This document shows positions 17,345 through 37,064 of a DNA stretch of 64,000 bases, piece by piece (the first letter of the stretch is position 1; each line of letters begins with the position of its first letter). Source of the DNA: Solibacteraceae bacterium (GTDB taxonomy: Bacteria > Acidobacteriota > Terriglobia > Bryobacterales > Bryobacteraceae); contig JAJPJX010000186.1 in the NCBI GenBank assembly GCA_021324015.1, forward strand, positions 1-64,000. Reading direction: 5' to 3'. Position numbers and translations under genes: made by a program. The notes beneath the pieces were generated by a model that worked only from the letters and a program-made list of their open reading frames with translations, did not search any database and was not told the DNA's origin.

Positions 17345-17346
17345 CG

Positions 17347-20152: not shown

Positions 20153-20667
20153 GCCGATTGCATCTCCCGCGCCAGGGCCGCCGCTTCCGCAACCGTTAGC
20201 TCCGTCTTCTCTCCGACGACCGCCACCACGCGCTGCCGCAGCATGGCAATGTGGCGGCGCCTACGCTGATCTGCGGCGATCTGGACATCCAGCATGCGCA
20301 GGTTGGAATCCAGGTCCGCGACCGTCGCGTGCATCACGGGCACCCACTCGCAGTCGCCATTCAGAGGATTCAAGATGTCGACGGGCACGGCGATCAAGTT
20401 GGGCATCTCGAATTCCGGGAGGTCCAGGCCGAGTTGCAGGCGCGCCTCAGCCTCGGTGACTTCGGCCGCAGTTTTCATCACGCGACGGGTAAGGTCGAAG
20501 AGCTTCTCCCGCGCCAGCTGCCGGCCGAGGTCGGCGAACAAGTCGCCGTTCTGTTCGATCACGGTATCGACGATGTCGCGGTTCCAGAAACGCCGCCCCG
20601 CGGCGCAAAACGCCGCCACGGTCTCCCGAATCGCCTCGGTCAGTTCGGAACGTCTACTTGTTCTCAT
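20149..20667 (-). CDS. Hypothetical phage protein, 172 aa
   Basis: Begins MRTSRRSELTEAIRETVAAF. It is mostly helical: RDIVDTVIEQNGDLFADLGR near the N-terminus and a long basic helical region near the C-terminus (DQRRRRHIAMLRQRVV). The middle contains GLDLPEFEMPNLIAVP. I recognise no family. It is coupled to both neighbours, overlapping the ParB-like gene by 14 bases and the helicase by 4, so a role in replication or partition with them is plausible. Confidence 0.62.
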   Translation of the reverse strand: MRTSRRSELTEAIRETVAAFCAAGRRFWNRDIVDTVIEQNGDLFADLGRQLAREKLFDLTRRVMKTAAEVTEAEARLQLGLDLPEFEMPNLIAVPVDILNPLNGDCEWVPVMHATVADLDSNLRMLDVQIAADQRRRRHIAMLRQRVVAVVGEKTELTVAEAAALAREMQSA

Positions 20668-21583: not shown

Positions 21584-21774
21584 CGACTCACCCGCTCCTT
21601 GGTCTCGTTCGGGTGAGGACGAACCTCGGCGGCGGCCCACTCTGCCAGGACGTGGAAGAGGCCTGTCACATTGGCCGCGATCTGACGGGCGTCTTCGACC
21701 GACAGCGGTCGATCCGTCTGCTCTTGCCAGAAGCGCCGGGTTTGTTCGAGGAACTGTTCTTTGGGCTCGCTCAT
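21580..21774 (-). CDS. Hypothetical phage protein, 64 aa
   Basis: Begins MSEPKEQFLEQTRRFWQEQT and is helical, with SVEDARQIAANVTGLFHVLA and a C-terminal basic tail. It resembles the small proteins placed before ParB-like genes in many prophages, without a known function. Its stop overlaps the ParB-like start by 4 bases, so the pair is coupled. An ATG at 21810 would add 12 residues. Confidence 0.58.
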   Translation of the reverse strand: MSEPKEQFLEQTRRFWQEQTDRPLSVEDARQIAANVTGLFHVLAEWAAAEVRPHPNETKERVSR

Positions 21775-21880
21775 CCGAAAAGTGGAGATCCTGTCGGAGG
21801 GCGCATTCACGCCATCCGGCTTCGACCCTCCACCTCGGCGTCGCGCCGATGGTGAGCGATCTATGGTGTTGACAGATCGA

Positions 21881-21900
21881 GGCCCCCGTTGGCGGGGGTC
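21881..21900. other. Stem-loop between early genes
   Basis: GGCCCCCG (21881-21888) pairs with CGGGGGTC (21893-21900) around a TTGG loop, 12 bases after the stop of the 69-residue minus-strand gene. No U run follows on that strand, so it may be a weak terminator or an mRNA processing site that separates regulator and replication transcripts. Confidence 0.45.
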
Positions 21901-21911
21901 CTCACGCTACT

Positions 21912-22121
21912 TTACGCGGACCGTTTCAGTTCATCCTCGGGGATGAGGTACTTGTGGTTTTTGCCCGCTCTTACGAGGAGCTCGCGTTTCCCGCTGTTGC
22001 CGATCTTGCAACTGATCGCCAGATCAAAATGCCCGTGAGATACGCCCTCGCGAACTTCGGTTTCAATCTTCGCGATGGCCTTCGCCAGCACGTTGGTCTC
22101 AGAGGTCGGCGGCTTTTGCAT
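21912..22121 (-). CDS. Hypothetical phage protein, 69 aa
   Basis: Begins MQKPPTSETNVLAKAIAKIE. The middle (HFDLAISCKIGNSGKRELLV) looks like a small beta sheet and the tail is basic. ATG 22121 is preferred because AGGAG lies 6 bases before it, rather than the earlier ATG at 22127. Part of the run of small genes downstream of the XRE/ImmA pair. No family recognised. Confidence 0.55.
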   Translation of the reverse strand: MQKPPTSETNVLAKAIAKIETEVREGVSHGHFDLAISCKIGNSGKRELLVRAGKNHKYLIPEDELKRSA

Positions 22122-22130
22122 CAGCATCTC

Positions 22131-22400
22131 CTATGAATTGTGAATCAGTGCCTTTAAATCCTTAATGGCCGAAACGAACTGCAAGGGTTTCACTTCGGCC
22201 TTGTTGCCGAAGAATTCCATCAGATCGGTCTGTCGGCTCGGCCGATCCTCAAACACAAAGAAAGCCCGCCGTCCTTCACGACGCAGACCCTGCAGGTCAT
22301 ATCCAATGCAGCGCAGGAAGCACGCGAGGTAGAAGTCGCCAGTTTCGTACCGGGAAGGGTACGAATGTTTGGTAGCGCGACTGTCCAGAGTCATGTCCAT
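22131..22400 (-). CDS. DUF5659-like protein, 89 aa
   Basis: Begins MDMTLDSRATKHSYPSRY, then FYLACFLRCIGYDLQGLRRE and RRAFFVFEDRPSRQ, the pattern of DUF5659-type proteins found in phages and mobile elements, of unknown function. AAGGCG lies upstream of the ATG. It begins 22 bases after the stop of the ImmA-like gene, so it is read from the same early promoter. Confidence 0.6.
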   Translation of the reverse strand: MDMTLDSRATKHSYPSRYETGDFYLACFLRCIGYDLQGLRREGRRAFFVFEDRPSRQTDLMEFFGNKAEVKPLQFVSAIKDLKALIHNS

Positions 22401-22422
22401 ACTAAACGCCTTTGCCGAACAA

Positions 22423-23151
22423 CTACGCCACGCCCTCCATGGAGAACAGCGATGCATCATCCCGCTGCACCAGCTTCAGTTCCTCGAGGCGAATCTGCAT
22501 CGCCTTCGCAGACACCCGGAAGATCGGCGCAATCTCGCCGGCGACGAATTCGATGGCCATCGAGGCGAGAAGTTCATCGGGCTCCACGAAACCCATCGCA
22601 CGCAGATTCTCGCGCGCGTTCCTGTTGAAGATGTACGGAGTCAGGCTGCCGCGATGCTTTTCCCATGCCGCGTACACCATGTTCTTGGGCATCAAAAGGT
22701 ATGCCGAGAAGTAGTCCGCCTGCCGTTCCATCGGGTCTTTGGACTGACTAGTCCGGCAGATCACTGTTGCCTTCGACGTAGTATCCGGGAACAACGATCC
22801 CTGATCCGGGTTATCCAGGAAGTAGTGGCGGTGTTGAACCCAGTGGCCAATCTCGTGCCCGACGGTGTAACGGAATCGTCCTTCCTTGTTGGGATGTTCG
22901 GTCGGCTCGATGCTTTCGTCGATGGCCACCAGTTTCTCGGGCGCCCACAGCGCACCCAGGATATCGGGATGCCCCAGGCGGGCTTCCAGGTTGTCGATCT
23001 CCAGCGTCAACTTGAGGTGTTTTTCCAGGATCTCCTCGACAGGGATCGGAGGAACGACAACATCACCATAGCGGCCGCCGTACTCAGCGAGCAGCTTTTG
23101 AGCGTTCCATTCAATGTGCTGCTTGGGTAAGTACTTGACTTTGATTGGCAT
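22423..23151 (-). CDS. ImmA/IrrE-family metallopeptidase
   Basis: A 242-residue zinc peptidase. The HExxH site is GHEIGHWVQH at about 98-107, with the glutamate zinc ligand expected farther on. The C-terminal part has QADYFSAYLLMPKNMV, typical of ImmA/IrrE proteins. In ICEBs1 and many prophages ImmA cleaves the XRE repressor to switch the element on after stress. Here the XRE partner is the separate gene immediately upstream (23228-23599), an ICEBs1-like split pair. Its function here is inferred from that family. Confidence 0.85.
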   Translation of the reverse strand: MPIKVKYLPKQHIEWNAQKLLAEYGGRYGDVVVPPIPVEEILEKHLKLTLEIDNLEARLGHPDILGALWAPEKLVAIDESIEPTEHPNKEGRFRYTVGHEIGHWVQHRHYFLDNPDQGSLFPDTTSKATVICRTSQSKDPMERQADYFSAYLLMPKNMVYAAWEKHRGSLTPYIFNRNARENLRAMGFVEPDELLASMAIEFVAGEIAPIFRVSAKAMQIRLEELKLVQRDDASLFSMEGVA

Positions 23152-23227
23152 CCAAATCTCTCATCTGCATCATCGTTATTCGCATTCTCCGGACACCGGG
23201 CGGGGAGCCGATCGCCGGATTACCCGT

Positions 23228-23599
23228 TTACTTCTCCGGCCCCTTCTTCCTCAGGCCCACTGCGCGCCGAGCCAGCTTCTCAATCTCGGCAGCCGGCAAT
23301 CCGCTCGCCGCGCGCAGAAACGTAGCCATCGCCCGCGGGTGCTGCTGGATGATTCCTGGAAGATCAGAAGCGACCTTGCCGGCAAGTGCCAGCAACTCAT
23401 CAGGATCCTCGCCGAGAATGTCGGCAATCCGGCGGACAGCTTCCTCGCCGGGGGGTGGAAACTCATCCCGCTCGACCTTCGACAGGTACGTCGGGCTAAT
23501 CTGGGCGCGCTCGGCAAACTTCCGGAGGCTGATTTCCTGTGCCTCCCGGAGGGCTCGAATGTGGGCGCCGAATCTCTTCTGCTTGGGCTCGTTTGCCAC
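23228..23599 (-). CDS. XRE-family repressor
   Basis: A 123-residue protein with an N-terminal helix-turn-helix of XRE type (RFGAHIRALREAQEISLRKF, then SPTYLSKVERDEFPPPGEEA) and a short helical C-terminus. Probable prophage repressor, paired with the ImmA-like peptidase 76 bases downstream. GTG 23599 is chosen because GGAAAGG lies at the right distance; an upstream GTG at 23605 would be too close to it. A TTGACA-16-TATACT promoter lies just upstream. Confidence 0.82.
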   Translation of the reverse strand: MANEPKQKRFGAHIRALREAQEISLRKFAERAQISPTYLSKVERDEFPPPGEEAVRRIADILGEDPDELLALAGKVASDLPGIIQQHPRAMATFLRAASGLPAAEIEKLARRAVGLRKKGPEK

Positions 23600-23628
23600 T
23601 GTCACCTTTCCAAGACTGTTTAGTAGTT

Positions 23629-23656
23629 AGTATACACCTCCCGTTTTCCGTGTCAA
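23629..23656 (-). promoter_or_regulatory. Sigma70-type promoter of the XRE repressor operon
   Basis: On the minus strand TTGACA (23651-23656) and TATACT (23629-23634) are separated by 16 bases, giving a start site near 23622, about 23 bases before GTG 23599. ACTA repeats around the -10 could be an operator for the repressor itself. Confidence 0.72.
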
Positions 23657-23666
23657 TCCCCGATTC

Positions 23667-24734
23667 TCAACCGCGAAGGAGTCGCAGAGAGCGCTCCGTG
23701 TAAAGGTCGCGGAACTCATCCTCTTCCAGGTTCAGGATCCTGCCAAGATCCGCGGCCGAGTATCCAAGCTCATTCGCATGGGCATCGATCATCATCTTCA
23801 GGAGCGTCGGCTTTTCCACAGGGATATCCAGTTCCTCGGGCTCCCTCATCCGGTACCCGGCCTGGCTGAACTGAATAAAGAGGTACCTCATCTGCGCCTC
23901 GGTGATCGTCTTGAGACGGTACGCCCGCATTACCAACGCCTGCATGGAGACCTTCCAGTACTGCTTCAGCGAAGCGAGCTTCGGAATGTTCAACCGGTGA
24001 AGAGACGTCTTAATTTCGGCGCCAGGCATCAAAAACTCGCTGGCGAAGCGGTCAGCTTCCTCTTCGATGTTCGGGCCACCGCCGCCCTGGTGCAATATGA
24101 TGTGTCCCAACTCGTGGGCGAGGTTGAAACGAAGCCTGTCTCCGGTTATCGCAGTGTTGGCATTGATGAAGAAGATCGGCGGGCAGGTGGACACCCATTC
24201 GCTGATGGCGTCAATTTTGCGTGTGCCGAAGTCGCACCGGACGACCACGCCTCCCGCGGATTCAATGGCTTCCGTCACGTTCCTCACCGGGCCGGGCGGC
24301 AGCTTCCAGTCCGCACGTACCAACTGGGCCACGTCCTCGACACTGCCACCGAAGTCAGCCACGTCATATGCGTGGAAAGAAAAACTCGCCTCTATAGCTG
24401 CAGATCGCAGCAGTCGCTCAATATGGAAGCGCCGAATGTTCATGTCCGCATGGAGCTTGCGAAGAACGCTCTGCGGGAGGCTCTGCCTCTTGCGGTGATA
24501 AAACACGCTGGAGCCAAAGCCGTGAACCCGGTCATCCTGATAGAAAAATGCACGGGGATACCGCAACGTGCGAGCCAGTTTTTCGATCATCTCCTCCGAC
24601 GGATTCTGGAGCCCTGCCTCAATTTTCGAAACGGTGCCCTGCTGCACGTTCATCGCACGCGCGAGTGCGGCTTGGGTCATCCCCCGCGACTCGCGGGCGA
24701 GAATCACCATCTCGGCGTTGATTTCCTCCCTCAT
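23667..24734 (-). CDS. XRE helix-turn-helix fused to ImmA/IrrE peptidase
   Basis: A 355-residue fusion. Residues 1-60 are an XRE domain (ARESRGMTQAALARAMNVQ, then GTVSKIEAGLQNPSEEMI), and residues about 170-260 an ImmA/IrrE metallopeptidase with LAHELGHIILHQG at about 205-217. Such proteins act as DNA-binding regulator and protease in one, often in antitoxin roles. It starts overlapping the stop of the upstream 195-residue gene, a pairing typical of toxin-antitoxin-like modules. It is a second XRE/ImmA unit beside the split one. Confidence 0.88.
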   Translation of the reverse strand: MREEINAEMVILARESRGMTQAALARAMNVQQGTVSKIEAGLQNPSEEMIEKLARTLRYPRAFFYQDDRVHGFGSSVFYHRKRQSLPQSVLRKLHADMNIRRFHIERLLRSAAIEASFSFHAYDVADFGGSVEDVAQLVRADWKLPPGPVRNVTEAIESAGGVVVRCDFGTRKIDAISEWVSTCPPIFFINANTAITGDRLRFNLAHELGHIILHQGGGGPNIEEEADRFASEFLMPGAEIKTSLHRLNIPKLASLKQYWKVSMQALVMRAYRLKTITEAQMRYLFIQFSQAGYRMREPEELDIPVEKPTLLKMMIDAHANELGYSAADLGRILNLEEDEFRDLYTERSLRLLRG

Positions 24735-25318
24735 AGCGCCAGATCACTTTGAGTTTCGGTGCGGCGAATCCGAACGCGAGGCCGCCGCGCCTCGCCATCG
24801 CTGCCAGAAGCAGTTTGTGGAAGCCGGATCACGGACTGCTCCGCCGGTTCGATCTCGATGTTCCACTCCACCCGCCTCCCGCTCATGCACGAAATCGACA
24901 CGTCTCTGATGTCTGTCTGAAAGCGATTAAGCCGGTAGCCACAGTAAACGCGTGTTGCTGTTGGGATCTCCGGCAACGACATCTGCTGGTTGTACATCCT
25001 GGCGTGGGCGGTTTGGTAGTTCCGCGGCCGACGGGCATCGTCGAACTTCTTGAATCGGACCAGGATCTGCTCATCGAGGCGCATGAGAACCAGCCCCTTG
25101 CTCTCCACCTCAACGAACTCCACACCCGGAACGGCGGCAAACTCGCGGCGGGCCGTATCGAGCATCCAGTCGTAAATCAGGTTGGCCCGGGTTCTTCGCG
25201 ACAGCCGTGGGTCCGGGCGCTGTTTCCAGCGTTCCCACGGCTCTTCGCAAACGCGCCAAAACCGTTCCTTGTGTGCTTCAATGAGGGAGAGGGCCGCCTC
25301 ACGCGAAAGTTTGCGCAT
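24731..25318 (-). CDS. Partner of XRE-ImmA protein, unknown function
   Basis: A 195-residue protein beginning MRKLSREAALSLIEAHKERF. It contains TRANLIYDWMLDTARREFAA and LDEQILVRFKKFDDARRPRN, with a basic, Thr/Arg-rich tail. The gene is fused by a 4-base overlap to the XRE-ImmA gene, as in two-gene modules where the first product may be the toxin or a sensor, which is inference. ATG 25318 has GAGGTG just upstream; the frame begins at GTG 25333. A promoter and a palindromic operator lie directly before it. Confidence 0.65.
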   Translation of the reverse strand: MRKLSREAALSLIEAHKERFWRVCEEPWERWKQRPDPRLSRRTRANLIYDWMLDTARREFAAVPGVEFVEVESKGLVLMRLDEQILVRFKKFDDARRPRNYQTAHARMYNQQMSLPEIPTATRVYCGYRLNRFQTDIRDVSISCMSGRRVEWNIEIEPAEQSVIRLPQTASGSDGEARRPRVRIRRTETQSDLAL

Positions 25319-25477: not shown

Positions 25478-28400
25478 TCACGCGATCATTGACACCGTCA
25501 CGCCCGGCCAGTCCGCGTATGGAAACTCGCTCGGCTCCCCGACAACATCCAGCGCCGCCAGCAGTTCCTCGAAACTTCCCACCGTGCGCGGCCCGAATCG
25601 CGTCGCCACGACGAACTCCGCGGCCGCCCCAGGACGCTGGACCATCCACGCGATTCCCCGGCCATCGGTGCCTCCGCCGGTGCTCTCCAAGTTGAAGGCT
25701 CCGAACGCTGCACCGCCAGGCGAGAACAACTGGAAGTTGTCGGAGGAGAACTCGAAGACGCCGGGATCGGTCGTGACTCGCACCGGCGTGCTGCCCGGCA
25801 GCCCAATCCCGTAGGAGCCCGGATCGAGTGGCCGGAAGTCCACCTCGGGCGGCCGCGCACGCGCAATCTGAATAGCGCGATCCAGGTCCCGCATGGTCAA
25901 CGCCGGCTCAGGAAGCGTAGGCAGATCCAGCGATCCCTCAACCGTCGCGTCGATGTCGAAGCCACGCTCGTCCGCGTCTCTGACCTGCTGCTCCAGTTCC
26001 GCAAGGAATCTGTGCCGAGCGGCCTCTCGCGCGTCCCGATCCAGCAGCGCCAGTTCTTCGAAACCGCGCGGCAGCCGCGACAGTATTGGTTGCAGTCGCC
26101 CCACGATTCCCTGGAAGAGATTGATGCGGCTTCCAACCGTGAAGAACACGTCCTGCTCGACCGTGTCCTTATATGCGAAGCTCAGCACCCGTATCACTGG
26201 ACGCTGCTGGCCGAGCCGGTCAATGCGCCCGATCCGCTGCTCCACTTTCATCGGATTCCAGGGCAGGTCGTAGTTCACCAGCACACCCGCGAATTGCAGG
26301 TTCAAACCCTCGCCGGCGGCATCGGTGCACACTAGCAGGCGCACCTGGCCATCGCGCAGACGCCGCTTGATCTCTTCCTTGGAACACGGCACCCAGTGGC
26401 CACTGGCGTCGCGCCACGCACCGCCAGCCCCGGAGTAGCAAGCCACAGGCATTCCCGCCATCTGGTCTGCCAGGTAATCGCGGAGGTACTCCATCGTGTC
26501 CGTGTATTGCGTAAACACGATCATCGAATCGAAGCCGTCCGCGAGGCACGCCTCCAACTCCACCTTGAGGCGACGAGCCTTGCTGTCGGTGCCCAATTGG
26601 GCAATCCGCCGAAGCAGGTCGTGGATTCGCTCCCGCTCGTTGATCGCTTCATTCTCTGGTGCTTCGGCCACCAGTTTCGCCACTTCGTCACCGGACATCA
26701 CTTCGTCCGAAGTTTCATCCTGCGACGCGTCTTCGTCCGTAATTCCACCCGTGCGCATCAGCCGCCCATTCAGCGTCCGCTTCAAGGCCTCGAAGCTCGA
26801 TGCCAGCCGACGGCGGTAGACGGTCATCACAAAGCCCACCGCGGAACGCTTTTCCGGAGAGGCGGCCCGGTAAGCATCGCCGATGAAATCCTCCACTGCG
26901 GTGTACAGCGCGCTCTCTGCCGGCGTCATCTCGACGACGACTTCGCGCGGATCGCGCTTCGGGACCGGAAGCTGATACCGGCGAAGCAGTTCGCGCGTAT
27001 TCCTGACCATGCGGTGCCGCAACGGGCTTGCCGCCTGCAGCAATCGAGTGGCGGCGCGACGGGTATCTGCGTCCAGGGTCTTGCGCGGAATGTTACTTTC
27101 ATCCCGCAGCGCCCGGAGCACCTTTTTGCGTTTCAAGGCAGACACATCCGGCAGAATCTGGGCCGCTTCCGAGTCGCCCATCTGACCGAAACTCGCTTCG
27201 GTGGAGCGGAAGAGCGATGCGAGGTACTCCAAATCGTCCGGACCGGGATTACCAGCCGCGCGCTGGAAATATCGGAGAAACACGCCGTCGTCCCGGCGCC
27301 AATCATCCGGCAGCCCCAACAGGTCCATCAGGTCCCACAACTCCACCGGATGCACCTGCATCGGCGTTGCCGTCAGCAAGAGCAGCGAGCCGCATTTCGG
27401 CGCCACCTTCCGCATCACCCCGAGCAGCGCGTTGGGACCCTTTTCCTGCGTACTGCCTGCACCGCGCCGGCGTGCATGGTGTGCTTCGTCCAGCACGACG
27501 AGATCCCAATCAGGCGCATCGATCAGTTCTCGCTGCCGGTCTGCCCGCCGTATCAAGAAACTGGATACCAGAACAACCGGCTCGGCCTGCCAATCATCGC
27601 GTCCAACTGGCCTCTCGATATCGCCGTGCGCACCATGAACCTGCTTCCACACCAGCGCCGATCCATCGTAGATGGGGACGTTCAGATTAAACTTCTCGTA
27701 CAGCTCGTTCTGCCACTGAATCTGGACGCTCTTGGGAGTCAGGATCAGGACCCGCTTCGCCAGACCGCAGAGAATCGCCTGCCGGAGGATCAGGCCCGCC
27801 GAGATCGTCTTGCCAAGTCCTACTTCGTCCGCGATCAATACCCGGCTCGGCCACTCGTTCAAGAACCGAGTATAGGTGCGGACCTGGTGCTGCCAGGGCG
27901 TAACGGCGCTCGTCATCTCACCCACGCGAAGTCCGTGCGCAAGCCGCGGCGCTTCATGGATGAAAGTCCAAACGACTCGGCGGAACTCATCGGCCAGCAG
28001 TTTGCGCGCTTCCGGTTCCTGGACAGCCCGGCGCGCGGGCGGCGTTACGAAACGGTCGTCGCTAGGCAGAAACTCTAGGAGCTTCCTTTTCGCCGCCTCC
28101 GGAAAGTCGAACACCTTCACCGACCGCGCGCGTCCCTCCCAAAGCCGGGCGAACGCATCTACCTCATCTTCCAGGTGAGCCGACTCGCGGCCGCCGAACC
28201 AACCGCAATGAACGTGGAAGCTCTCGCGGTTGTTGATCCAGCCGCCAGCCGTCTCGTTGATCGATCCGGAAAAACTCAGCCGGTTGCCTTCGGCATCGGT
28301 CAGAATGCCGACCTTCTCGTGGTATAGCCCGGGTGCGTGGGCAGGCCGCCCGTCAGGATCGACGGGCACAGCCACCTTCACATCCAGATGCCCCTGCGCC

Positions 28401-28750
28401 ACCATCCAAGCGAGCATTTCCAGACCCCGGCCTGCTTCCTCGTCCGGCGGCGTCAAGTCGGCGGCAAGAAGATGCGTCTCGAGGCGGGCGCGCCAGTCGT
28501 ATCCCTCGCCGATCGCATCCTGTTCGGGTTGTTGGAGAGTGCAGCCGACGATCAGCCGCATGCGGCCGTCGTTGGTGATGAGCGCCGCGATCCCCCGCGC
28601 GGCGAGCGCCAACGCATCGGCGGAAAAGTAGCCCGTCATGCGGTCGTACTGAACGGCGCAAGCGAGGGCCGGGTTGTAGAACAACTCGATCAGATCGCCA
28701 TCTTCGTGGCGATAGCTGGTGCACCACTCGCGCTCAGTCAGCAGACTCAT
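25478..28750 (-). CDS. PLD-domain SNF2 helicase (Hma-like defence cassette)
   Basis: A 1090-residue protein. Residues 1-230 resemble a phospholipase-D-like nuclease domain (DRMTGYFSADALALAARGIA; HEKVGILTD and FSGSINET near 175-190). A SNF2 helicase follows: IADEVGLGKTISAGL at about 305-319, VVLDEAHHAR at about 418-427, LLLLTATPMQ, and the C-terminal motif VI, EQRIGRIDRLGQQRP. PLD-SNF2 helicases are core parts of anti-phage systems related to DISARM and of the helicase-methylase-ATPase type. It overlaps the DUF1156 methyltransferase by 17 bases and is the last gene of the cassette. Confidence 0.88.
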   Translation of the reverse strand: MSLLTEREWCTSYRHEDGDLIELFYNPALACAVQYDRMTGYFSADALALAARGIAALITNDGRMRLIVGCTLQQPEQDAIGEGYDWRARLETHLLAADLTPPDEEAGRGLEMLAWMVAQGHLDVKVAVPVDPDGRPAHAPGLYHEKVGILTDAEGNRLSFSGSINETAGGWINNRESFHVHCGWFGGRESAHLEDEVDAFARLWEGRARSVKVFDFPEAAKRKLLEFLPSDDRFVTPPARRAVQEPEARKLLADEFRRVVWTFIHEAPRLAHGLRVGEMTSAVTPWQHQVRTYTRFLNEWPSRVLIADEVGLGKTISAGLILRQAILCGLAKRVLILTPKSVQIQWQNELYEKFNLNVPIYDGSALVWKQVHGAHGDIERPVGRDDWQAEPVVLVSSFLIRRADRQRELIDAPDWDLVVLDEAHHARRRGAGSTQEKGPNALLGVMRKVAPKCGSLLLLTATPMQVHPVELWDLMDLLGLPDDWRRDDGVFLRYFQRAAGNPGPDDLEYLASLFRSTEASFGQMGDSEAAQILPDVSALKRKKVLRALRDESNIPRKTLDADTRRAATRLLQAASPLRHRMVRNTRELLRRYQLPVPKRDPREVVVEMTPAESALYTAVEDFIGDAYRAASPEKRSAVGFVMTVYRRRLASSFEALKRTLNGRLMRTGGITDEDASQDETSDEVMSGDEVAKLVAEAPENEAINERERIHDLLRRIAQLGTDSKARRLKVELEACLADGFDSMIVFTQYTDTMEYLRDYLADQMAGMPVACYSGAGGAWRDASGHWVPCSKEEIKRRLRDGQVRLLVCTDAAGEGLNLQFAGVLVNYDLPWNPMKVEQRIGRIDRLGQQRPVIRVLSFAYKDTVEQDVFFTVGSRINLFQGIVGRLQPILSRLPRGFEELALLDRDAREAARHRFLAELEQQVRDADERGFDIDATVEGSLDLPTLPEPALTMRDLDRAIQIARARPPEVDFRPLDPGSYGIGLPGSTPVRVTTDPGVFEFSSDNFQLFSPGGAAFGAFNLESTGGGTDGRGIAWMVQRPGAAAEFVVATRFGPRTVGSFEELLAALDVVGEPSEFPYADWPGVTVSMIA

Positions 28751-31613
28751 CTTCGTCCTCGGCCGTTGCCGGTAACTCGAGCGGGATCTGCTCCGGAATC
28801 CTCGGCGCCGGCACAGTCTCGGCGAATGCCAGTTTGCGGAGGCGTTCTAGCGCTTCGAAGTCACTCGCCGCGCCAGCAAGGTTCGCGTCAGGTTTCTTCT
28901 TTCCTGAAGGAATTCCCGGAGGCAACACATTTAGAAGTGCCTCGATCGCCGTCAACAATGTCGGGTCACCGATCAAGTGAGCATTTTCGATAAGGCTCCG
29001 CGCAGCACCGGTATTCTGTTCGCGGCCTGTCTTTGCCGCCGCGTGTAGTGTGTCGAGCATGCACTCCTCGCTGGCGTGCCCGAGGGTGCCGTTGCGGTGG
29101 CGAGTGATGCTGTCCCATAGGATCACGTCATCGCCTTTCACTTCGCAGACCCGCTTCTTCACGTCCTGGTCGAAATCCAAGCCAACAACGCGGGCCAACT
29201 TGAGCGCTTCGTCCGCGGGAAATCTCGGCGCGCGGAACGCGTCCCAGGCGAGAACGTACCATTCGGTCAAGGCATCTAGGTGATGCTGGCGTTTGACGGT
29301 CGCTAGCTGCTCCATGCGCCATTGCTTCACTTCTCGCCGAGCTGCTTCGAGCGCATCCTCCGGGCGGACCGCATAAGGATCAAATTCGTCGAACAGATCC
29401 TTCTGCTTTGTTTTCGGCTGTGGGCGCGCTGTGCCGCGATTGAGGGGCCAAGCCTCGGTGAACACTTGAAGTGCCGGCCCGAAGCAGGCGAGATACAAAT
29501 CGATTCCGCCGATCCCGGCTTCTTGGAACTCCTTCACTTTCCGTCGGACAGCCAGCCGGACTGTCGGTTCCACCTCCTCCCAGTAATGCGGTTCAGCATC
29601 TGTAGGAGTTGGCTTACGAACACGACACACAAGAAAGATGGTGGATCGTGCCGCCGATTTCTCGCGGATGTGCAGGCTGCCTTCCGCTTCCGTATTCACC
29701 GGCCAGGAAGCGGTGATCACAAAGCCACCGTCGATTAAGCCCTTCGCCAGTGCATCCCACGCATCTGATTCCTTGTGCGTGAACATGACGGTCATGATTC
29801 CGTCTGGCTTCAAGACTCGACGCTGTTCCAAGAAGATCGCGGCCATCCGTGTTTGATAGTCCCGCTTGGCAAGGTTTTTCGCGCCACCCTTCTTTCCCTT
29901 GAATCTCGCCAGATTGGCAACGGCCTCCCGGTCCTTGTCGGTCAGCGGGTCGGCGAACAGACTCGGGAAAACGAGACCAGCCGTCCGCTTGAGCCACACA
30001 TAAAAGAAGTCCGCCAACTCGGCGTACATGACGTTCTGATAGTACGGAGGGTCCATGACGACGCAATCGACGGAGGCTGACGGGAGATCGAGCGCGTCAC
30101 CTGACTGGCAGGTGAAACGAACTACAGGTTTCGGGCGGGGGGCGGCAAACTCCAGCTTGCCATCGTTTGAATGGCCTAGAAGCTCGACCAGTTCATCGAG
30201 AGCATTGCCGGTCTCTTCGATCGCCCAGTCATAACCAAGGCCGGCAACCGTGGGAGCCATCTCGGCATAGCTCCACTTGAAAGAAAAGTCATGACGATCG
30301 AAGACACCTGCAACCACTTCGCGATTCGCGTGCCAACGAACCTGAATCGCATTGTAGTTGAGCATCTTGCCCAGGGCGACCGCGATATATGTGATCGCAG
30401 CGCGATCAAGATCAGTCGTAACAAGCTCTTCGAAGATTTCGTGAAAAACCTCGACGCTCACGCAGTGCCCGAAAAGTTGACGCGGATTGAATAGATCTCG
30501 CCAGAGCGGGGCGCCGTATTGACGTGGTCGATCATCGTTGGTATCGGGCGGAAATTCTTCATCGGGCACTATGTTACGCGCCTGCCAGAGCGGCATTCTC
30601 TCTCGGAGTTTTCTCTCTACGTCCTTCGCCACATCGTCGTCTGGTCCCGGAGCCCGAAAGTAGCGCGGCCTTTCGATCTTCGGCTTACCGTTTTTTGTGT
30701 AACCTTTAATTCGCTCCTCTTTGTAAACGACGCAATAGAGCTGATGGCCCATCTGTCCGTCCTGAGCCTGGGGTTTGATTTCGTCTTCGCCATCTATGGT
30801 GCGACGACAGTCCGGAAAAGGGCAGATTCCGTCGCCGTCCTTCACAGTGCCGGGTGAATGATCGGATTCGCGCTCAACGATCTCGAAGCGAATGCGCCCC
30901 GCTTCCGGCACCAGTCTCACTCCGTGTCCTCGTGCAGAAAGCTTCCAGTTCGGTGACAGAGGGACGATTCCTCCGCAATAGGGGCAGGTGACAGTTCTCG
31001 CCCAGAGGTAGCCATCGCAGATCCGCTTGTCCGACTCAGGAGGATAGAGATCGGCTATCCTGCTGCGCACGCGGTTAATGAACTCCGCCCCGAGTGTGCG
31101 AAACCTCTCCACGAGCGGAGGCCCGAACTGAAGCGGTAGTTCAACCGTCGCCTTCAAGATAAGAGCTGCAACCGCGTTCGAGTCATTGCCGATCGCCGCG
31201 CAACCAAGCCGAACTGCCTCGAAAGGTATGCTTCCACCGCCTGCAGTTGGGTCCAACACTGTCGCGGACATGGGAAGCTCCGAGACCTCGGGCAGATGCT
31301 GAAATGCGCGAGAGTATCCGTATGCGTCGGCTCCGAGGCGGACACCTTGGGCAGTTGCTTTCGCGATTCGCGTCTTGGCCGCAACCGGATCGCCATGAAT
31401 ACCCAGGTCGCGCAGGAACTTCCCCCGATCGGCATCAGCGCCAAGTAAGCTTCCGAGAATCGCAGCACGGCTCGCTACCAGAGGTCTGCGAGCAAACCAG
31501 ACGTGCAGACGGTTAGGCGCTGGAAAAGGCGTCATCGGGGTCCGCTCGCGGAGACTCTCAATGCCGATTTGCGCGATCGGCAGCCAGTCCTCTATAAGTC
31601 GGCGTTTGCTCAT
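28734..31613 (-). CDS. DUF1156-family DNA methyltransferase (defence cassette)
   Basis: A 959-residue protein beginning MSKRRLIEDWLPIAQIGIES, the pattern of DUF1156 proteins, with HVWFARRPLVASRAAILGSL near residue 40. DPTAGGGSIPFEAVRLG (about 115-131) is the SAM-binding motif, CPYCGGIVPLS and CPFPDCRRTI form a zinc ribbon near 210-270, and DPPYYQNVMYAELADFFYVW (about 521-540) is the catalytic loop. It should methylate DNA, probably adenine. Start and stop overlap the neighbours by 4 and 17 bases, so the cassette is translated as a unit. Confidence 0.9.
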   Translation of the reverse strand: MSKRRLIEDWLPIAQIGIESLRERTPMTPFPAPNRLHVWFARRPLVASRAAILGSLLGADADRGKFLRDLGIHGDPVAAKTRIAKATAQGVRLGADAYGYSRAFQHLPEVSELPMSATVLDPTAGGGSIPFEAVRLGCAAIGNDSNAVAALILKATVELPLQFGPPLVERFRTLGAEFINRVRSRIADLYPPESDKRICDGYLWARTVTCPYCGGIVPLSPNWKLSARGHGVRLVPEAGRIRFEIVERESDHSPGTVKDGDGICPFPDCRRTIDGEDEIKPQAQDGQMGHQLYCVVYKEERIKGYTKNGKPKIERPRYFRAPGPDDDVAKDVERKLRERMPLWQARNIVPDEEFPPDTNDDRPRQYGAPLWRDLFNPRQLFGHCVSVEVFHEIFEELVTTDLDRAAITYIAVALGKMLNYNAIQVRWHANREVVAGVFDRHDFSFKWSYAEMAPTVAGLGYDWAIEETGNALDELVELLGHSNDGKLEFAAPRPKPVVRFTCQSGDALDLPSASVDCVVMDPPYYQNVMYAELADFFYVWLKRTAGLVFPSLFADPLTDKDREAVANLARFKGKKGGAKNLAKRDYQTRMAAIFLEQRRVLKPDGIMTVMFTHKESDAWDALAKGLIDGGFVITASWPVNTEAEGSLHIREKSAARSTIFLVCRVRKPTPTDAEPHYWEEVEPTVRLAVRRKVKEFQEAGIGGIDLYLACFGPALQVFTEAWPLNRGTARPQPKTKQKDLFDEFDPYAVRPEDALEAARREVKQWRMEQLATVKRQHHLDALTEWYVLAWDAFRAPRFPADEALKLARVVGLDFDQDVKKRVCEVKGDDVILWDSITRHRNGTLGHASEECMLDTLHAAAKTGREQNTGAARSLIENAHLIGDPTLLTAIEALLNVLPPGIPSGKKKPDANLAGAASDFEALERLRKLAFAETVPAPRIPEQIPLELPATAEDEDESAD

Positions 31614-32041
31614 GGCGTAGTCAGCAATATCCTCAAAGACGCGAGCACCCGACGCGGGTACTCCCGGTGCATCACCATGCCGAGCCAGTAACCGGCTTCC
31701 TCGCGCGACATTTTCTCCACTCCCTCGGCCACCTGGCGGATGCGGTCCAGGTTCTTCATCGGCGCCAGCACGCGGAACAGCAGTCCCAACGTGAGAGCCA
31801 CTTCTTCATCGAGCGGCCACCGCTTCGTCTTCCCCGGCTTCAGCGAGCCGAGCACGATCTTCTCTCGCGCCAATCGCTTCAACAGTCGGTTCTCAGCAAC
31901 CCGCAGACCAGGTCCTTGGATGGTGGCAACGTGTTCCGGCGCTTTCAGTCGCGGAGTGGCGGGCGAGGGTGCTTGCCAAATCTCCAAGCGCCACACGCTC
32001 GTCGATTCGACGATCATGCGCAGTTCATACTGGGGCGTCAT
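31610..32041 (-). CDS. Small protein of the defence cassette, 143 aa
   Basis: Begins MTPQYELRMIVESTSVWRLE, a beta-rich N-terminus, followed by a basic helical part (NRLLKRLAREKIVLGSLKPG, EEVALTLGLLFRVLAPMKNL). It sits between the ATPase and methyltransferase genes, separated from the ATPase gene by one base and overlapping the methyltransferase by 4. Similar short proteins occur in that place in DUF499-DUF1156 loci; some are listed as DUF7680 or DUF3780, which I cannot decide here. Probably an adaptor for the ATPase or methylase. Confidence 0.62.
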   Translation of the reverse strand: MTPQYELRMIVESTSVWRLEIWQAPSPATPRLKAPEHVATIQGPGLRVAENRLLKRLAREKIVLGSLKPGKTKRWPLDEEVALTLGLLFRVLAPMKNLDRIRQVAEGVEKMSREEAGYWLGMVMHREYPRRVLASLRILLTTP

Positions 32042-32042
32042 G

Positions 32043-35000
32043 TTAGACCTTTCCGGCGACCGCCTCCACGAAGGCTTCGCCGCCCCCATACTGCGTCAAC
32101 TTCTTCGTAAACGCGTCGGCGGCCCCGTCCTTGAGAGAGAGGGGCTGCTTGAACGCCAGGCGGTAGCTGGCCTCGAATTGGGTCTCGCCGGCGGCCCGGA
32201 TCTGCGGATCGAGAAACGATTTCACGGCATTCGCCTTGTCGACGCGCCCAGTGAAATTCACCTCAAACTGCTCGATTCCGTCGGCTTCAATCCCCACCTC
32301 GAAGTGGCACGTGACATCCGCGTCCTGCAGCGTTGCCATGGCCTGATGCACTTTCCACGTGGCGCCGGCCTCGAACAGACGAACGGTAAGACTCGCGATG
32401 CTGCCCACCTTGGCTTTGCGCGCCTTGTCCCACAGGTCGGCAAGCGCCTGGGCAAGCGGCCCCTGCGCGGAGAGTTCCGGCGGCGGTGGCTCGGCGGGCT
32501 TGAATCCCGGCAAGATCGGCGGCTGGATCTCACCGGATTTCTCGCGGATCGTTACCACGGAAATGGTCTGCTGTTTCTGACCGCGGGAATCCGTAACTTC
32601 GATCGTATAGGTGATCGACTGTTCCGGCCGCACACGAAGTTGCTGGGTCGTCTGATCCGTTGACGCGGCCGAAAGCCGGGGCTCATTGGACGTGTACGTG
32701 TACGGCGGAACACCGCCTTTGACACTCACCAATAACTCGGACGAGCCACCCCGCTCAATTGTGGTCGGATTGGCCTGGAAGCGAACTTCGAGCGGTTCTG
32801 CGCGCGGCCACAGGTTCTTCGCCTTCGCGTCATCAATGGTGTGGACAAAGTGGTTATCGCTGATGTGGATTACCGGTCGCGGGTCACCCGGGCCCCACAC
32901 CTGGGCTCCCTCGCGATAGATAAACAGCCCCTGGTCGATTCCGTTCCGGATGCATTCCAGCAGCGGGGTGTCGTGCAGCAGGATGGAAAGTTTTGGCGCG
33001 CGCCGGTACTCGGTCCGCATCTGCGCCGTGGTCATCTCACCCTTCACACGCAATCCGGTCTGGTCGCGTACGAAAGGTGGTGAGTCGGGAATGTCGCGAG
33101 CCTCGAGTAGCTTCTTTTGCTCATGCAGCACCCGTTCAACCTGGTGTTGTCCGTTGCCGGGGGAATCACCGGCGCCGGAGAGTTCGATGATCGTGTGCCC
33201 GAGGTCGAGTTGGGCCCCGGTCATCCTGGAACTGGACGGATAAAACAGATGGCGGTAGCACTGGAGGATCGCCATGGCCACGTCGAGCTTCAGCTTCTCG
33301 TACTCTGCTTTGACCTTGCCCTGCTGATAGTCGGCGAGTTCACGTTGATGTTCGGGTTTCTGAAGCTGGCCGAGTGCGAGGCGACGCCGCACCAGGTCGC
33401 GCATATTCGGAATAGTGCGCTCATCGGCCGCCACGAAGACCAGATTATTCTTCAATTCGCGGATCTTGCGGTCAGTGCCCTTGTACTCGAAGATTTCGGC
33501 GATATCGGGCGGCGGCTGGCGCAGGTCGGACGGCACGGCTGTGGATTCGTAGCTCATGACCACCAGCAGCGGCCGCCCGTCGCCTATCTCGTCGGGCACT
33601 TCGTACGGACCCGCCGGCGACAGGATCGCGTTGAATTCTCCTCGGGGCAAACTGAACAGACCGCGGATGCGCTCGCCGAGCTCGGCGCGCACGTCGGCGA
33701 CATCGATGTCCTTCATCATCCGCCGGATGATCATGGTGAGGTTCGGTTCCACCATGAAGCGCAGCGGCGCGCCGGGACGGTCGTCCAGGTAGATCGAATC
33801 AGTCACAAACTGCATGCGCGCCTGCTCGACGAAGGACGGCTCCAGCGCGGGCGAACAGGCGGACAGCTTCAACTGCTCTGCCGTGATGCCTTTGGCTGAG
33901 TCTCCGTAAGCGAGGGTGTGCCAGAAGATGGTGCGGGCCACGTATGCCGTTACCGGCGGCAGACCCGGGTATTTCTGCGCGTCGATGCGCTGCGCCAATG
34001 CGGGCTCGTCGCCGGCTACCGCCGCGACATCGGACTTCACGGCAGGCGCGTACTGGCCTTGCCCGAGTTTGACGTTGATCTCGGTGCGGATCGCCTCAAA
34101 CGCCGGGTCCAGGTGGTGGGCGTGGATGGACGATGCATCCGCCGGCTGAATCCTCCAGAGGTGGTGAACCGCGCGGGCCAATAGCCGCAACATGCCGCGC
34201 GTGCGCTGGAATGTGCTGAGCGAGGCAGTCTTCTCGGTCAGCATCTCAAGCAGCTTTGGATGGAGAGGGTAGCTGCGCGCGAACTGGTCCCTGAGTTCCG
34301 GGTCGGCGGCATCGGCGGGCAACGCGTCGCGATTGGAATTCCAGACCTGGGTGTAAGCCGCAATGACCGTCTGCGCTGCGTCAAGATCAACCTTCTCGAA
34401 GAGGCGCGCCCGCAACACATTCGGTGTCTCGTCCTCCTCGGTGGGATTCAGCGGTGTCGTGCTTCGGACTGCTACGCTCTCCGCTTCTGACATCGCCGCG
34501 GCCGCGCGTTCGTTCTCCTCTTTGTACGCATCGCCCGCCTTGTCATCCTTCCCCACCGCGAGGGTATAGACCAGCGCGACTTGGGGTGTGGCCGCCACCG
34601 CTTTGAACAGATCGTGTATGAAAGCCGCAAACTGCTTCGATGCATCCGGAAACGCGCGCTCCACTTTCCGCAGGTAGACTGAGATTTCGTCGAGCAGGAT
34701 CAGCGTGGGCTGGCCACCGAATAGCTCGCGAATGGTGTCCGCTCCCGGCGCGATGTGCCTTTCGTCGCTGACGCGAATGCGTTCGTAACCGTCGCGGCCA
34801 GCCAGGCGGTAGGCCATTTCGCCCCAGAGCGAACGTGCGAGGAGTCCTGGCTCCAGAGTGAGTCCATTGGCGGGGTCGGCATTTTCGCCGTCCAGCGCAG
34901 CGATGCGGACCGGGCCGCTTGGCAGGATGGCGGGATCGACGAATTTCTCGGGATCAGGAACGCCCTTCATCCCACGGATCGTGTGGACCAGAGCAATCAG

Positions 35001-35279
35001 CGAGTGGGTCTTACCACCGCCGTATTGCGTCCCTAGGCGGATGATGGAAGAGACCTCGCCGCCGCGGCCGGAAAGGCGCAGGGAGATCGCTTTCAGCAAT
35101 TCCTTCATGCCGCGGGTCGGGTAGCTCTTGGCGAAGAACGCGGCGGGATCGAGGTAGTCGGCGGGGGCCGTCCCGTTCACCACACGCGAGAGGTCCGCCA
35201 TGAATTCGTCGTCGCGGATGGTGCCCGCGAGCACATCGGCGCGCGGACGGCAGGTATCGAAGATCGTCGGCAGACTCAT
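32043..35279 (-). CDS. DUF499 ATPase (defence cassette)
   Basis: A 1078-residue protein beginning MSLPTIFDTCRPRADVLAGT. The P-loop is GTQYGGGKTHSLIALVH (about 80-96) and Walker B LILLDEISVYLRK (about 193-205), matching DUF499, an AAA-type ATPase family that is nearly always next to DUF1156 methyltransferases. The C-terminal half contains an Ig-like or beta-rich segment (PPYTYTSNEPRLSAAS). ATG 35279 is chosen because a well-spaced promoter lies just upstream; the longer frame reads into it. First gene of the four-gene cassette. Confidence 0.9.
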   Translation of the reverse strand: MSLPTIFDTCRPRADVLAGTIRDDEFMADLSRVVNGTAPADYLDPAAFFAKSYPTRGMKELLKAISLRLSGRGGEVSSIIRLGTQYGGGKTHSLIALVHTIRGMKGVPDPEKFVDPAILPSGPVRIAALDGENADPANGLTLEPGLLARSLWGEMAYRLAGRDGYERIRVSDERHIAPGADTIRELFGGQPTLILLDEISVYLRKVERAFPDASKQFAAFIHDLFKAVAATPQVALVYTLAVGKDDKAGDAYKEENERAAAAMSEAESVAVRSTTPLNPTEEDETPNVLRARLFEKVDLDAAQTVIAAYTQVWNSNRDALPADAADPELRDQFARSYPLHPKLLEMLTEKTASLSTFQRTRGMLRLLARAVHHLWRIQPADASSIHAHHLDPAFEAIRTEINVKLGQGQYAPAVKSDVAAVAGDEPALAQRIDAQKYPGLPPVTAYVARTIFWHTLAYGDSAKGITAEQLKLSACSPALEPSFVEQARMQFVTDSIYLDDRPGAPLRFMVEPNLTMIIRRMMKDIDVADVRAELGERIRGLFSLPRGEFNAILSPAGPYEVPDEIGDGRPLLVVMSYESTAVPSDLRQPPPDIAEIFEYKGTDRKIRELKNNLVFVAADERTIPNMRDLVRRRLALGQLQKPEHQRELADYQQGKVKAEYEKLKLDVAMAILQCYRHLFYPSSSRMTGAQLDLGHTIIELSGAGDSPGNGQHQVERVLHEQKKLLEARDIPDSPPFVRDQTGLRVKGEMTTAQMRTEYRRAPKLSILLHDTPLLECIRNGIDQGLFIYREGAQVWGPGDPRPVIHISDNHFVHTIDDAKAKNLWPRAEPLEVRFQANPTTIERGGSSELLVSVKGGVPPYTYTSNEPRLSAASTDQTTQQLRVRPEQSITYTIEVTDSRGQKQQTISVVTIREKSGEIQPPILPGFKPAEPPPPELSAQGPLAQALADLWDKARKAKVGSIASLTVRLFEAGATWKVHQAMATLQDADVTCHFEVGIEADGIEQFEVNFTGRVDKANAVKSFLDPQIRAAGETQFEASYRLAFKQPLSLKDGAADAFTKKLTQYGGGEAFVEAVAGKV

Positions 35280-35463: not shown

Positions 35464-37053
35464 ATGCCGACACGACCATCAAGCCAGGTTGCCCAGAGTT
35501 CCGCGGTGCTTTACGCCCGCGTCTCCTCGAAGGACCAGGAGCGAGAAGGATTCTCGATTCCGGCCCAGATCCAACTGCTGCGTGGGTACGCCACGAACCG
35601 AGACCTGACCGTCCTGAAGGAGTTCGTCGACGTGGAAACCGCCAAGCAGGCTGGCCGCACTGGCTTCGGCGAGATGCTCACGTTCCTCCGGAAGGAGAAG
35701 ACCTGCCGCATCCTGCTCGTCGAGAAGACGGACCGCCTCTACCGCAACCTCAAGGACTGGGTGACGCTCGATGAACTGGATCTCGAAATCCATCTCGTGA
35801 AGGAGAACATCGTTATTTCCCGGGACTCGCGCTCCTCGGAGAAGTTCATGCACGGCATCAAGGTGCTGATGGCCAAGAACTTCATCGACAACCTGTCTGA
35901 GGAAACGAAGAAGGGGATGTTGGAGAAGGCCCGCCAGGGGATCTGGCCGTCGTTCGCGCCGCTCGGCTACCTCAACGTGATGGGCCAGGACGGCAAGCGG
36001 ACGATTGCTCCCAACCCCGCACTGGCGCCGATCATCCGGTGCATATTTGAGCGGTACGCGACAGGCCAGCACTCTTTGAAGGAGATCGCCAAGCTCGCGC
36101 GCCAGGACGGCATGCAATACCCCAAGAGCAAGCTGCCCGTCCCAACCTCCACCATCCACAAGATTCTCCGCAATCGGATCTACTGCGGCGATTTTGACTT
36201 CGACGGGACGACGTACGCCGGCAAGTACGAGCCAATCATCTCTCGTGAACTCTGGGCGCAGGCACAGGATGTTATCGATGGGCGCAACCGGACGAAGCCC
36301 AGCCCCGTTCGCCGCGACTTTGCCTTCAGCAACCTGATCAAGTGTGGGCACTGCGGCTGCGCCATGGTGGGCGAGTTGAAGAAGCGGCAATACGTCTACT
36401 ATCACTGCACTGGCTACAAGGGAAAGTGCCCGGAGCCCTACACGCGGGAGGAGATTCTGGAGGCACGTTTCGGCGAGCTGCTGCGAGGCCTCACCTTCCC
36501 CAAGGAGGTCCTGGACTGGATCGTAACGGCGCTGCGTGAGAGCCACGTCGACGAGAAGGCGTTCCACGATGAGGCTATCGCGCGCCTCCAGGCCGAATAC
36601 CGCCGACTCCAGAACCGCATCGACGCGATGTACCTGGACAAGCTTGATGGCCGGATCGACACTGCCTTCTTTGACAGCAAGTCGGCCGAGTGGCGCGCCG
36701 AGCAAGACCGCCTCCTGCGCGACGTCGCGACGCACCAGGCCGCCAACCAGACCTACATTGAGGAAGGCGTCCAGTTGTTGCAGTTGGCCCACCGTGCGCA
36801 CGACCTGTTCGAAAGGCAGGAACCGGCGCAAAAACGGCGACTCCTTAATTTCTTACTCTCGAACTGCGTTTGGAAGGCCGGTGTGCTCACCGCAGAATAC
36901 CGCCAACCGTTTGACATGTTGGCACTTGCGCGCGAGGCCGCAGGAGAGGATGAAGTGGTGAGTGGGACGAAAAACAGCCAATTTGTGAAATGGCTCCCCG
37001 GCATGGATTCGAACCACGATTCACGGCTCCAAAGGCCGCTGTCCTACCATTAG
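35464..37053 (+). CDS. Large serine recombinase (prophage integrase)
   Basis: A 529-residue serine recombinase. The catalytic domain has YARVSSKDQEREGFSI with Ser21 the nucleophile. The recombinase DNA-binding domain follows (PNPALAPIIRCIFERYATG, then ILRNRIYCGDF), and then the zinc ribbon CGHCGCAM...YYHCTGYKGKC (about 293-320) and a coiled coil near 360-430. It should catalyse integration and excision at attB/attP. The frame enters the tRNA-Gln gene antisense: residues 510-529 (ending MDSNHDSRLQRPLSYH) are encoded by tRNA sequence, so the attachment site supplies its last residues. A weak TATAGT at 35421-35426 may be its -10. Confidence 0.93.
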   Translation: MPTRPSSQVAQSSAVLYARVSSKDQEREGFSIPAQIQLLRGYATNRDLTVLKEFVDVETAKQAGRTGFGEMLTFLRKEKTCRILLVEKTDRLYRNLKDWVTLDELDLEIHLVKENIVISRDSRSSEKFMHGIKVLMAKNFIDNLSEETKKGMLEKARQGIWPSFAPLGYLNVMGQDGKRTIAPNPALAPIIRCIFERYATGQHSLKEIAKLARQDGMQYPKSKLPVPTSTIHKILRNRIYCGDFDFDGTTYAGKYEPIISRELWAQAQDVIDGRNRTKPSPVRRDFAFSNLIKCGHCGCAMVGELKKRQYVYYHCTGYKGKCPEPYTREEILEARFGELLRGLTFPKEVLDWIVTALRESHVDEKAFHDEAIARLQAEYRRLQNRIDAMYLDKLDGRIDTAFFDSKSAEWRAEQDRLLRDVATHQAANQTYIEEGVQLLQLAHRAHDLFERQEPAQKRRLLNFLLSNCVWKAGVLTAEYRQPFDMLALAREAAGEDEVVSGTKNSQFVKWLPGMDSNHDSRLQRPLSYH

Positions 37054-37064
37054 ACGACCGGGGA
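36991..37064 (-). tRNA. tRNA-Gln (anticodon UUG), prophage attachment site
   Basis: Read on the minus strand from 37064, the sequence folds into a full cloverleaf: acceptor TCCCCGG with CCGGGGA, anticodon stem GCGGC/GCCGT around a CTTTGGA loop (anticodon TTG), T arm with TTCGAAT, and an encoded CCA at 36991-36993. The 3' half, which lies under the recombinase 3' end, is the likely attachment site. The gene is intact, so integration restored it. Confidence 0.93.

Follow-up and report, generated by a model that had tools for sequence, protein, structure and literature searches.

Which phage-defence system is encoded when genes for an ATPase, a methyltransferase and a helicase stand in one operon with a fourth, small gene, and what does that small gene contribute? 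The question is raised by a minus-strand operon in a 64,000-base stretch of Solibacteraceae DNA, hereafter the window, which forms the beginning of the 102,836-base contig C178 from an assembly of 8.2 Mb in 214 contigs. The operon encodes a DUF499 ATPase, a small protein, a DUF1156-type DNA methyltransferase (MTase) and an SNF2 helicase that carries an HKD nuclease domain at its N-terminus. A preliminary description had compared the locus with Hma systems and had left the role of the small protein open. We identify this protein as DUF7680, a constant neighbour of this clade of DUF499 ATPases, and we put at roughly 60% the probability that the operon is a complete, compact, prophage-carried system of the DUF499-centred, BREX-related kind, a restriction–modification-like DUF7680 variant working by the mechanism proposed below.

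The operon is intact

All four open reading frames (ORFs) are open between positions 25478 and 35279 (Table 1), and the gene order and domains given in the preliminary description agree with the ORFs and with the profile matches. Its junctions were likewise borne out by the sequence: a 1-base gap (position 32042) separates the DUF499 and DUF7680 genes, the DUF7680 and MTase genes overlap by 4 bases (ATGA), and the MTase and helicase genes overlap by 17 bases. An alignment of the P-loop, DPPY and HxK residues had been recommended as a check and found all three conserved in full-length ORFs (65 ATPase, 44 MTase and 35 helicase rows, the window included in each). In the ATPase, Walker A (GGGKTH, residues 87–92) is kept in 63–64 of 65 rows, with one gap, and the DE of Walker B (LLDE, 195–198) in 65 of 65. 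The MTase carries DPTAGGGS (121–128), CPYC (210–213) and DPPY (521–524), the last kept in 44 of 44 rows. In the helicase, the HKD residues H144, K146 and D152 (spacing HxKx5D) are kept in 35 of 35 rows and a GSxNE motif lies at 162–166; the helicase motifs span residues 308–848, with DEVGLGKT, DEAHH and TATP kept in 34–35 of 35 rows per position and QRxGRxDR in all 35. The sequence matches of the helicase in the PDB are RapA and SNF2 remodellers; the MTase has no match there by sequence.

The proposal that the operon has a promoter of its own fared less well. The motif TTGTGC-17-TACACT is present at 35327–35299, but it agrees with the sigma-70 consensus at only 3/6 and 4/6 positions, the window has, counting both strands, 521 places that match equally well or better, and a stricter promoter scan of the window did not list it. 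We therefore rejected it as evidence.

DUF7680 follows DUF499 across phyla

The closest published plan is that of the Type-2 BREX-related (BR) systems (Rakesh and Krishnan, 2026; PMC12839542), whose defining features are an HKD–SNF2 helicase, DUF3780 and a separate clade of DUF499. Their genes run in the order DUF499–DUF3780–MTase–HKD/SNF2 (PMC12839542; NCBIfam NF042961–NF042964), with a standalone DUF3780 gene in 98% of Type-2 BR taxa (PMC12839542). In the window, DUF7680 stands where DUF3780 would be expected from this order. A genome scan with 12 DUF7680 sequences returned 167 relatives; the analysis used the best 80 loci, some of which share a genome. In 76 of these 80 loci, which come from many phyla, no more than 700 bp separate the end of the DUF499 gene from DUF7680 downstream of it; three of the other four are truncated where the contig begins, and L116 has its DUF499 2.8 kb away. 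Among the 44 loci with at least 8 kb of downstream sequence, an MTase follows on the same strand in 38 and an HKD helicase in 33, and the order DUF499–DUF7680–MTase–HKD/SNF2 recurs across phyla. Counting against a fixed four-gene unit are the 6 of 44 long loci without an MTase and the 11 of 44 without a helicase downstream on the same strand, together with L107 and L118, where MTase/helicase genes lie on the other strand. At L140, a divergent cyanobacterial plasmid locus with DUF7680, an EVE-domain gene (L140:4759–5187) is found just upstream of DUF499.

Among 396 genomes sampled from the phylum, 9 encode DUF7680, 7 of them with scores above the curated cut-off, and 3 encode DUF3780. The two families never occur together in 162 loci (109 with DUF7680, 36 with DUF3780), an exclusivity that is partly by design, as most loci were fetched through one of the two families and some are duplicates.

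The AlphaFold model of DUF7680, a family with the motif EEAxYW-LGM, has the order β-β-β-α-β-α-α-α-α (mean pLDDT 91.5). The DUF3780 model shows the same order of strands and helices (mean pLDDT 81.8, poor at the ends and above 90 for most of the middle), and DUF3780 has been described as a four-stranded sheet with five helices (PMC12839542). Profile–profile comparison in hhalign aligned 91 collinear columns of the two families at E 0.0017 and a score of 28.1; none of 100 column shuffles scored above 24.5, and reversed profiles reached 18.7/17.4. The alignment set behind this E value (57 DUF7680 rows, made up of alternate classical sequences and 16 divergent or viral sequences, and 31 DUF3780 rows) was picked after the fact, which flatters the result. 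Plain profile searches of each family against the other's HMM gave best E values of 0.0037 and 0.061, with tiny sets. Several observations weaken the link. The hhalign probability is 16% at best; other alignment sets gave E 0.042 (12 sequences) and, in local mode, 0.16 (81 closely related sequences), and global mode with the latter 81 found nothing (E 0.7). The small protein of the window has no Pfam DUF3780 match, DUF7680 being its only Pfam domain, and Foldseek at E ≤0.001 returned no match for DUF7680 (PDB, BFVD) or for DUF3780 (BFVD only). A sequence search of the PDB with DUF7680 gave no usable match. DUF7680 is probably the counterpart of DUF3780 and not its proven kin, the profile similarity being suggestive.

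The first half of the methyltransferase diverges

Between the window and locus L049, identity is 91% for DUF499 and the HKD helicase and 94% for DUF7680; in the MTase it is 67% over residues 1–500 and 87% from residue 560 on. DUF499 identity reaches 0.8 or more in 16 of 903 pairs, which are not independent because several share members; in these close pairs, identity averages 0.73, 0.69 and 0.70 for MTase residues 1–110, 130–300 and 300–500, and 0.87 and 0.85 for residues 500–700 and 700–959, with 0.81 for the HKD helicase. One close pair, L073/L067, goes the opposite way, its low part being residues 700–959. In distant pairs (DUF499 identity 0.4–0.5) the same five stretches average 0.65, 0.53, 0.46, 0.70 and 0.51; residues 1–300 thus lie above the ATPase, and the first half is not merely loose. 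Fourfold sites were compared in 8 chosen pairs, the window being a member of two of them and L074 of two; in 7 of the 8, the first half of the MTase is less alike at these sites than its second half and than DUF499. The G+C content of the MTase gene is 0.58, compared with 0.616–0.632 for its three operon neighbours. Both the first-half divergence and the low G+C content fit allele replacement by recombination.

In BREX, PglX sets the specificity of both modification and restriction (PMC11341690). A change of the self mark in the MTase alone, beside an almost constant ATPase and nuclease, would be lethal unless restriction reads the MTase, which argues that the MTase is likely the shared specificity subunit for modification and restriction, as PglX is in BREX. 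Weighing against this view, the pair L078/L069 shows no drop at fourfold sites in the first half of the MTase; a sensing role is conceivable for DUF499 residues about 850–950, which vary most among close pairs (0.74, 0.70); and the case for MTase-guided restriction is built on analogy and on this co-variation argument.

In the mechanism we propose, the MTase would recognise a site through its first half, a putative target-recognition insert, and mark it in the DNA of host and prophage; the same MTase, bound to the DUF499 ATPase, would tell the complex where to restrict. DUF7680 would occupy the place on the complex that DUF3780 has in Type-2 BR and would relay to the effector that a site is unmethylated. 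The SNF2 motor would then translocate on unmodified incoming DNA, which the HKD nuclease would cut, probably as a dimer since each chain has one HKD motif. The prophage would benefit by excluding other phages and protecting its host. A bolder version makes DUF7680 the mark of a fourth DUF499 subtype, the first half of the MTase the sole seat of specificity, DUF7680 a licence reader that couples this half to the HKD–SNF2 motor, and the stand-alone DUF7680 proteins of large phages decoys that jam the complex; we regard this combination as a long shot.

An unlikely alternative is a Type IV-like system, in which DUF7680 reads modified phage bases and the MTase protects or licenses host DNA, with no shared site specificity. 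DUF3780, sometimes fused to ASCH/PUA or RAMA readers, has been proposed as a reader of methyl marks (PMC12839542), and EVE proteins, for which an archaeal link is given, accompany related operons (PMC7641849), as the EVE gene does in L140. An allele-like first half of the MTase beside far more constant DUF499, DUF7680 and HKD proteins nevertheless fits a sequence-specific self mark, and the small protein offers neither a Pfam domain other than DUF7680 nor a structural neighbour of its model.

Placement among DUF499 systems

Hma, described in PADLOC 2021 (PMC8565338), corresponds to Type-1 BR (PMC12839542). The PADLOC search recommended in the preliminary description gave distant Hma matches for two of the proteins: the best are HmaC for the ATPase (6.1e-96) and HmaB for the MTase (3.7e-60, but only 201.8 bits). 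The helicase, by contrast, has BrxH as its top match, and BrxH, PLD_Helicase and PbeA all rank ahead of HmaA; it scores 254 bits on PLD_Helicase and 373 on NF042964 compared with 213 on HmaA. The match of the ATPase to HmaC reaches 321 bits over 8–712 of 941 positions, whereas 17 matches among 297 genomes of the phylum exceed 1000 bits over nearly the whole profile; the lower range is shared with other, non-DUF7680 loci, and the score alone is not decisive.

Phylogenetic analysis of DUF499 separated the HmaC rows, the DUF3780-linked rows and the main DUF7680-linked rows into clades with support of 100 each. The tree with HmaC sequences held 16 DUF7680 rows, 9 DUF3780 rows and 8 of the 17 high-scoring HmaC loci (L044 and the short L200–L202 were dropped); an earlier tree sampled every fourth of L048–L127 and left out L028, L030–L033 and L045. 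The window lies outside both the clade of the eight high-scoring HmaC rows (100% SH-aLRT) and the group of DUF3780-linked rows, which make up one side of a branch with support of 100. Two divergent cyanobacterial DUF7680 rows join the main DUF7680 clade at 86 and two other divergent rows fall elsewhere; the DUF499s of the divergent DUF7680 rows L035 and L040 lie outside that clade. DUF7680 may be older than its main DUF499 clade or may have been shared by exchange, with long branches making either view unsure. The DUF7680 locus G329 is labelled "other" (L037) in one tree and "mid" (L211) in the other, a mislabelling that makes the DUF7680 label look like two changes. Residues 825–912 of the window ATPase weakly match phage decoration proteins (E 0.07), which is compatible with the β-sandwich reported for Type-2 BR ATPases.

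In the HmaA-type loci L219 and L221 the helicase aligns with that of the window only from window residue 276–279 on and so has no N-terminal HKD, and neither locus has a DUF7680 match; HmaA helicases have been reported with a C-terminal REase in 79% of taxa (PMC12839542). A plain Hma system with an accessory small gene is accordingly improbable. The distant similarity of ATPase and MTase to the Hma profiles holds, but we rejected membership on two grounds: the HKD domain at the start of the window helicase, which the two HmaA-type helicases compared do not share, and the place of the ATPase apart from the HmaC clade.

With Type-2 BR the window shares a DUF499 ATPase, a DUF1156 MTase and an SNF2 helicase in one locus and an HKD domain at the helicase N-terminus; the absence of a Tudor domain was judged from sequence position only. 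In profile searches the small protein matched PF24728 and neither PF12635 nor NF042961. Assignment to the DUF3780 set, which NCBIfam labels "anti-phage-associated", is opposed by the scores of the three large proteins, 373, 214.5 and 184.5, where the anti-phage equivalogs have cut-offs of 1100, 1000 and 1200, with no match for the small protein. This set reportedly goes back to a system that Gao et al. (2020) called "restriction-like"; the literature searched under the name Gao_RL contains nothing on this operon. DUF7680 has 0 occurrences in the accessible text of PMC12839542 and is absent by name from the literature searched, which together with the separate DUF499 clades argues for a distinct variant near Type-2 BR. 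Judged by its sequence, the window is a DUF7680 variant that is Type-2 BR-like in plan, distinct in ATPase lineage and unnamed in that literature. The host genome contains two more DUF499 loci, G000:C137:91017-91724 (L043) and G000:C104:25-591 (L044), the former with an MTase and an SNF2 helicase with N-terminal HTH and C-terminal NOV_C domains; it looks Type-1-like.

Cargo slots and mobile carriers

The gap between the DUF7680 and MTase genes exceeds 250 bp in 44 of 59 measurable loci and that between the MTase and helicase genes in 20 of 39, although frame errors or start codons called too late may account for some of these gaps. These slots hold DarT + macro pairs and Schlafen/AlbA, AAA/OLD-like, GmrSD (DUF262), VapC and MazF genes. 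A DarT + macro pair lies between MTase and helicase in three close relatives of the window copy, in L049:13271-15019 (by Pfam) and in L050:13357-15229 and L051:7155-8913 (by clustering), and in the other slot in L061 (by clustering); none was shown in the near relatives L052 and L053. Both slots are empty in 5 of 39 loci (L053, L058, L082, L088, L126), and the same is true of the window and of the three complete copies on virus contigs, L172–L174. The window copy may have lost a DarT + macro pair or may never have gained one. DUF262/GmrSD, OLD-like, Schlafen/AlbA, DarT/macro, VapC and MazF were each rejected as a fifth core gene because the slot contents vary between loci.

DUF7680 is found in 23 plasmid records, and the annotated regions L128–L130 show all four genes. 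Scans of a phage collection (with DUF7680 and DUF499) and single-sequence scans of IMG/VR found no relative; an alignment scan of IMG/VR found six virus contigs with DUF7680, three of them with all four genes, though these records are possibly fragments or misassigned. Stand-alone DUF7680 genes occur in the large virus records L176 (9776–10204; 154,759 bases) and L177 (9794–10210; 77,676 bases), neither of which has a DUF499 or DUF1156 match; in L176 an ArdC-N anti-restriction gene lies about 2.4 kb away.

Prophage setting and integration site

The operon sits between phage repressor/ImmA genes on its left and a serine integrase and tRNA-Gln on its right. With phage genes on both flanks and its frames intact, it is the cargo-type operon adjoining an integrase that the preliminary description had proposed. 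Terminase, portal, S49 protease, primase, repressor and integrase genes are present (Table 1); the contig starts at window base 1, inside the prophage, and the far end lies beyond the contig.

Table 1. Features of the operon and of the surrounding prophage in the window.
Feature	Position	Strand	Details
DUF499 AAA+/ORC-Cdc6-like ATPase	32043..35279	-	1078 aa; PF04465 1.6e-35
DUF7680 small protein	31610..32041	-	143 aa; PF24728 1.0e-39
DUF1156-type DNA methyltransferase	28734..31613	-	959 aa; PF06634 1.9e-13
HKD (PLD-like) nuclease-SNF2 helicase	25478..28750	-	1090 aa; SNF2 2e-13, Helicase_C 2.2e-17
Prophage large serine integrase	35464..37053	+	phrog_95, 5.1e-81; Resolvase + Recombinase + zinc ribbon
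tRNA-Gln (TTG), probable integration site	36991..37064	-	candidate att core 36991-37019
Prophage head/packaging genes	270..6092	-	S49 maturation protease, portal, TerL (gpA), TerS
Prophage replication/regulation genes	14020..25318	-	D5-type primase, SNF2/DEAD helicase, ParB-like, HTH repressor, HTH-ImmA/IrrE, phrog_15813

The integrase frame ends inside the tRNA-Gln gene, its 3′ end reading through the tRNA. The 29 bases of the candidate att core, which form the 3′ end of the tRNA-Gln gene, recur exactly in the relatives G003 and G012 (L237, L238), 5.1 and 5.3 kb from the full tRNA. The stretch between the repeats encodes AbiEii and AbiEi-like genes in G003, and no integrase was identified in the stretch of either genome. 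The repeats resemble the ends of an integrated island, which supports the tRNA-Gln gene as a shared integration site, once with defence cargo. A second att copy was not found in the window's own genome, where nothing beyond weak matches to 24 and 42 query bases appeared; such an absence would be expected if the far end of the prophage is unassembled. A tRNA-SeC gene (37184–37277) adjoins the integration site. Elsewhere in the prophage, two neighbouring ParB-like/DNA methyltransferase proteins (phrog_498; 7931–9202 and 10089–11612) perhaps serve phage self-protection, and the HTH-ImmA/IrrE protein at 23667–24734, which strongly matches PADLOC RmrA (3.9e-68), could be either an ordinary phage regulator or a defence regulator.

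The position beside an integrase, and the toxin–antitoxin and defence genes in the slots of related operons, would also suit an addiction-like module guarding the prophage, in which a cell that lost the MTase would have its old sites attacked by the nuclease, with phage defence as a by-product. This reading is very improbable: of 16 related loci compared, L172 alone has relatives of this prophage's other genes in the flanks covered, although no general search for phage genes around the remaining loci was made, and the operon is therefore not dependent on this phage. A degenerate or silent remnant is scarcely credible despite the lack of a convincing promoter, as the four frames are open, the catalytic motifs are intact, and the 91% identity of DUF499 and HKD to L049 stands against only 0.49–0.53 at fourfold sites and therefore indicates purifying selection.

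Comparison with known systems and significance

The BR family has been reported in 3592 prokaryotic taxa (PMC12839542), and, on the sequence evidence, the operon belongs to a widespread, little-studied group of probable phage-defence systems. The DUF7680 lineage, spread over many phyla, is a compact four-gene form in which half the methylase gene diverges naturally, so that the role of the small subunit and the seat of specificity can both be probed with simple chimeras. Here the system is carried by a phage beside its integrase, and the stand-alone DUF7680 proteins of phages may be counter-defence.

DISARM (DrmD) and Dpd (DpdE) resemble the operon in the homology of their SNF2 helicases, but the partners in the window are DUF499 and DUF1156 proteins, and DrmB is not among the matches listed. 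For BREX, including Type-3 BREX, common ancestry of ATPase, MTase and helicase has been argued (PMC12839542); BrxH leads the matches of the window helicase, and the proposed logic of a shared-specificity MTase is that of PglX. The window differs in that its nuclease is an HKD domain on the helicase and its ATPase is DUF499 and not BrxC/DUF6079; neither PglZ nor BrxC (DUF6079) is among the matches listed for its four proteins. Hma has an ATPase, a methylase and an SNF2 helicase of the same superfamilies, with HmaB and HmaC the best PADLOC matches, but is set apart by its separate DUF499 clade and, in the two HmaA-type loci, by the lack of an N-terminal HKD and of a DUF7680 match. Type-2 BR comes closest, sharing the gene order (compare L131), the HKD–SNF2 plan, the DUF1156 MTase and a small α+β protein directly after DUF499; the window is distinguished from it by DUF7680 in place of DUF3780 and by a DUF499 that lies outside the DUF3780-linked clade (support 100).

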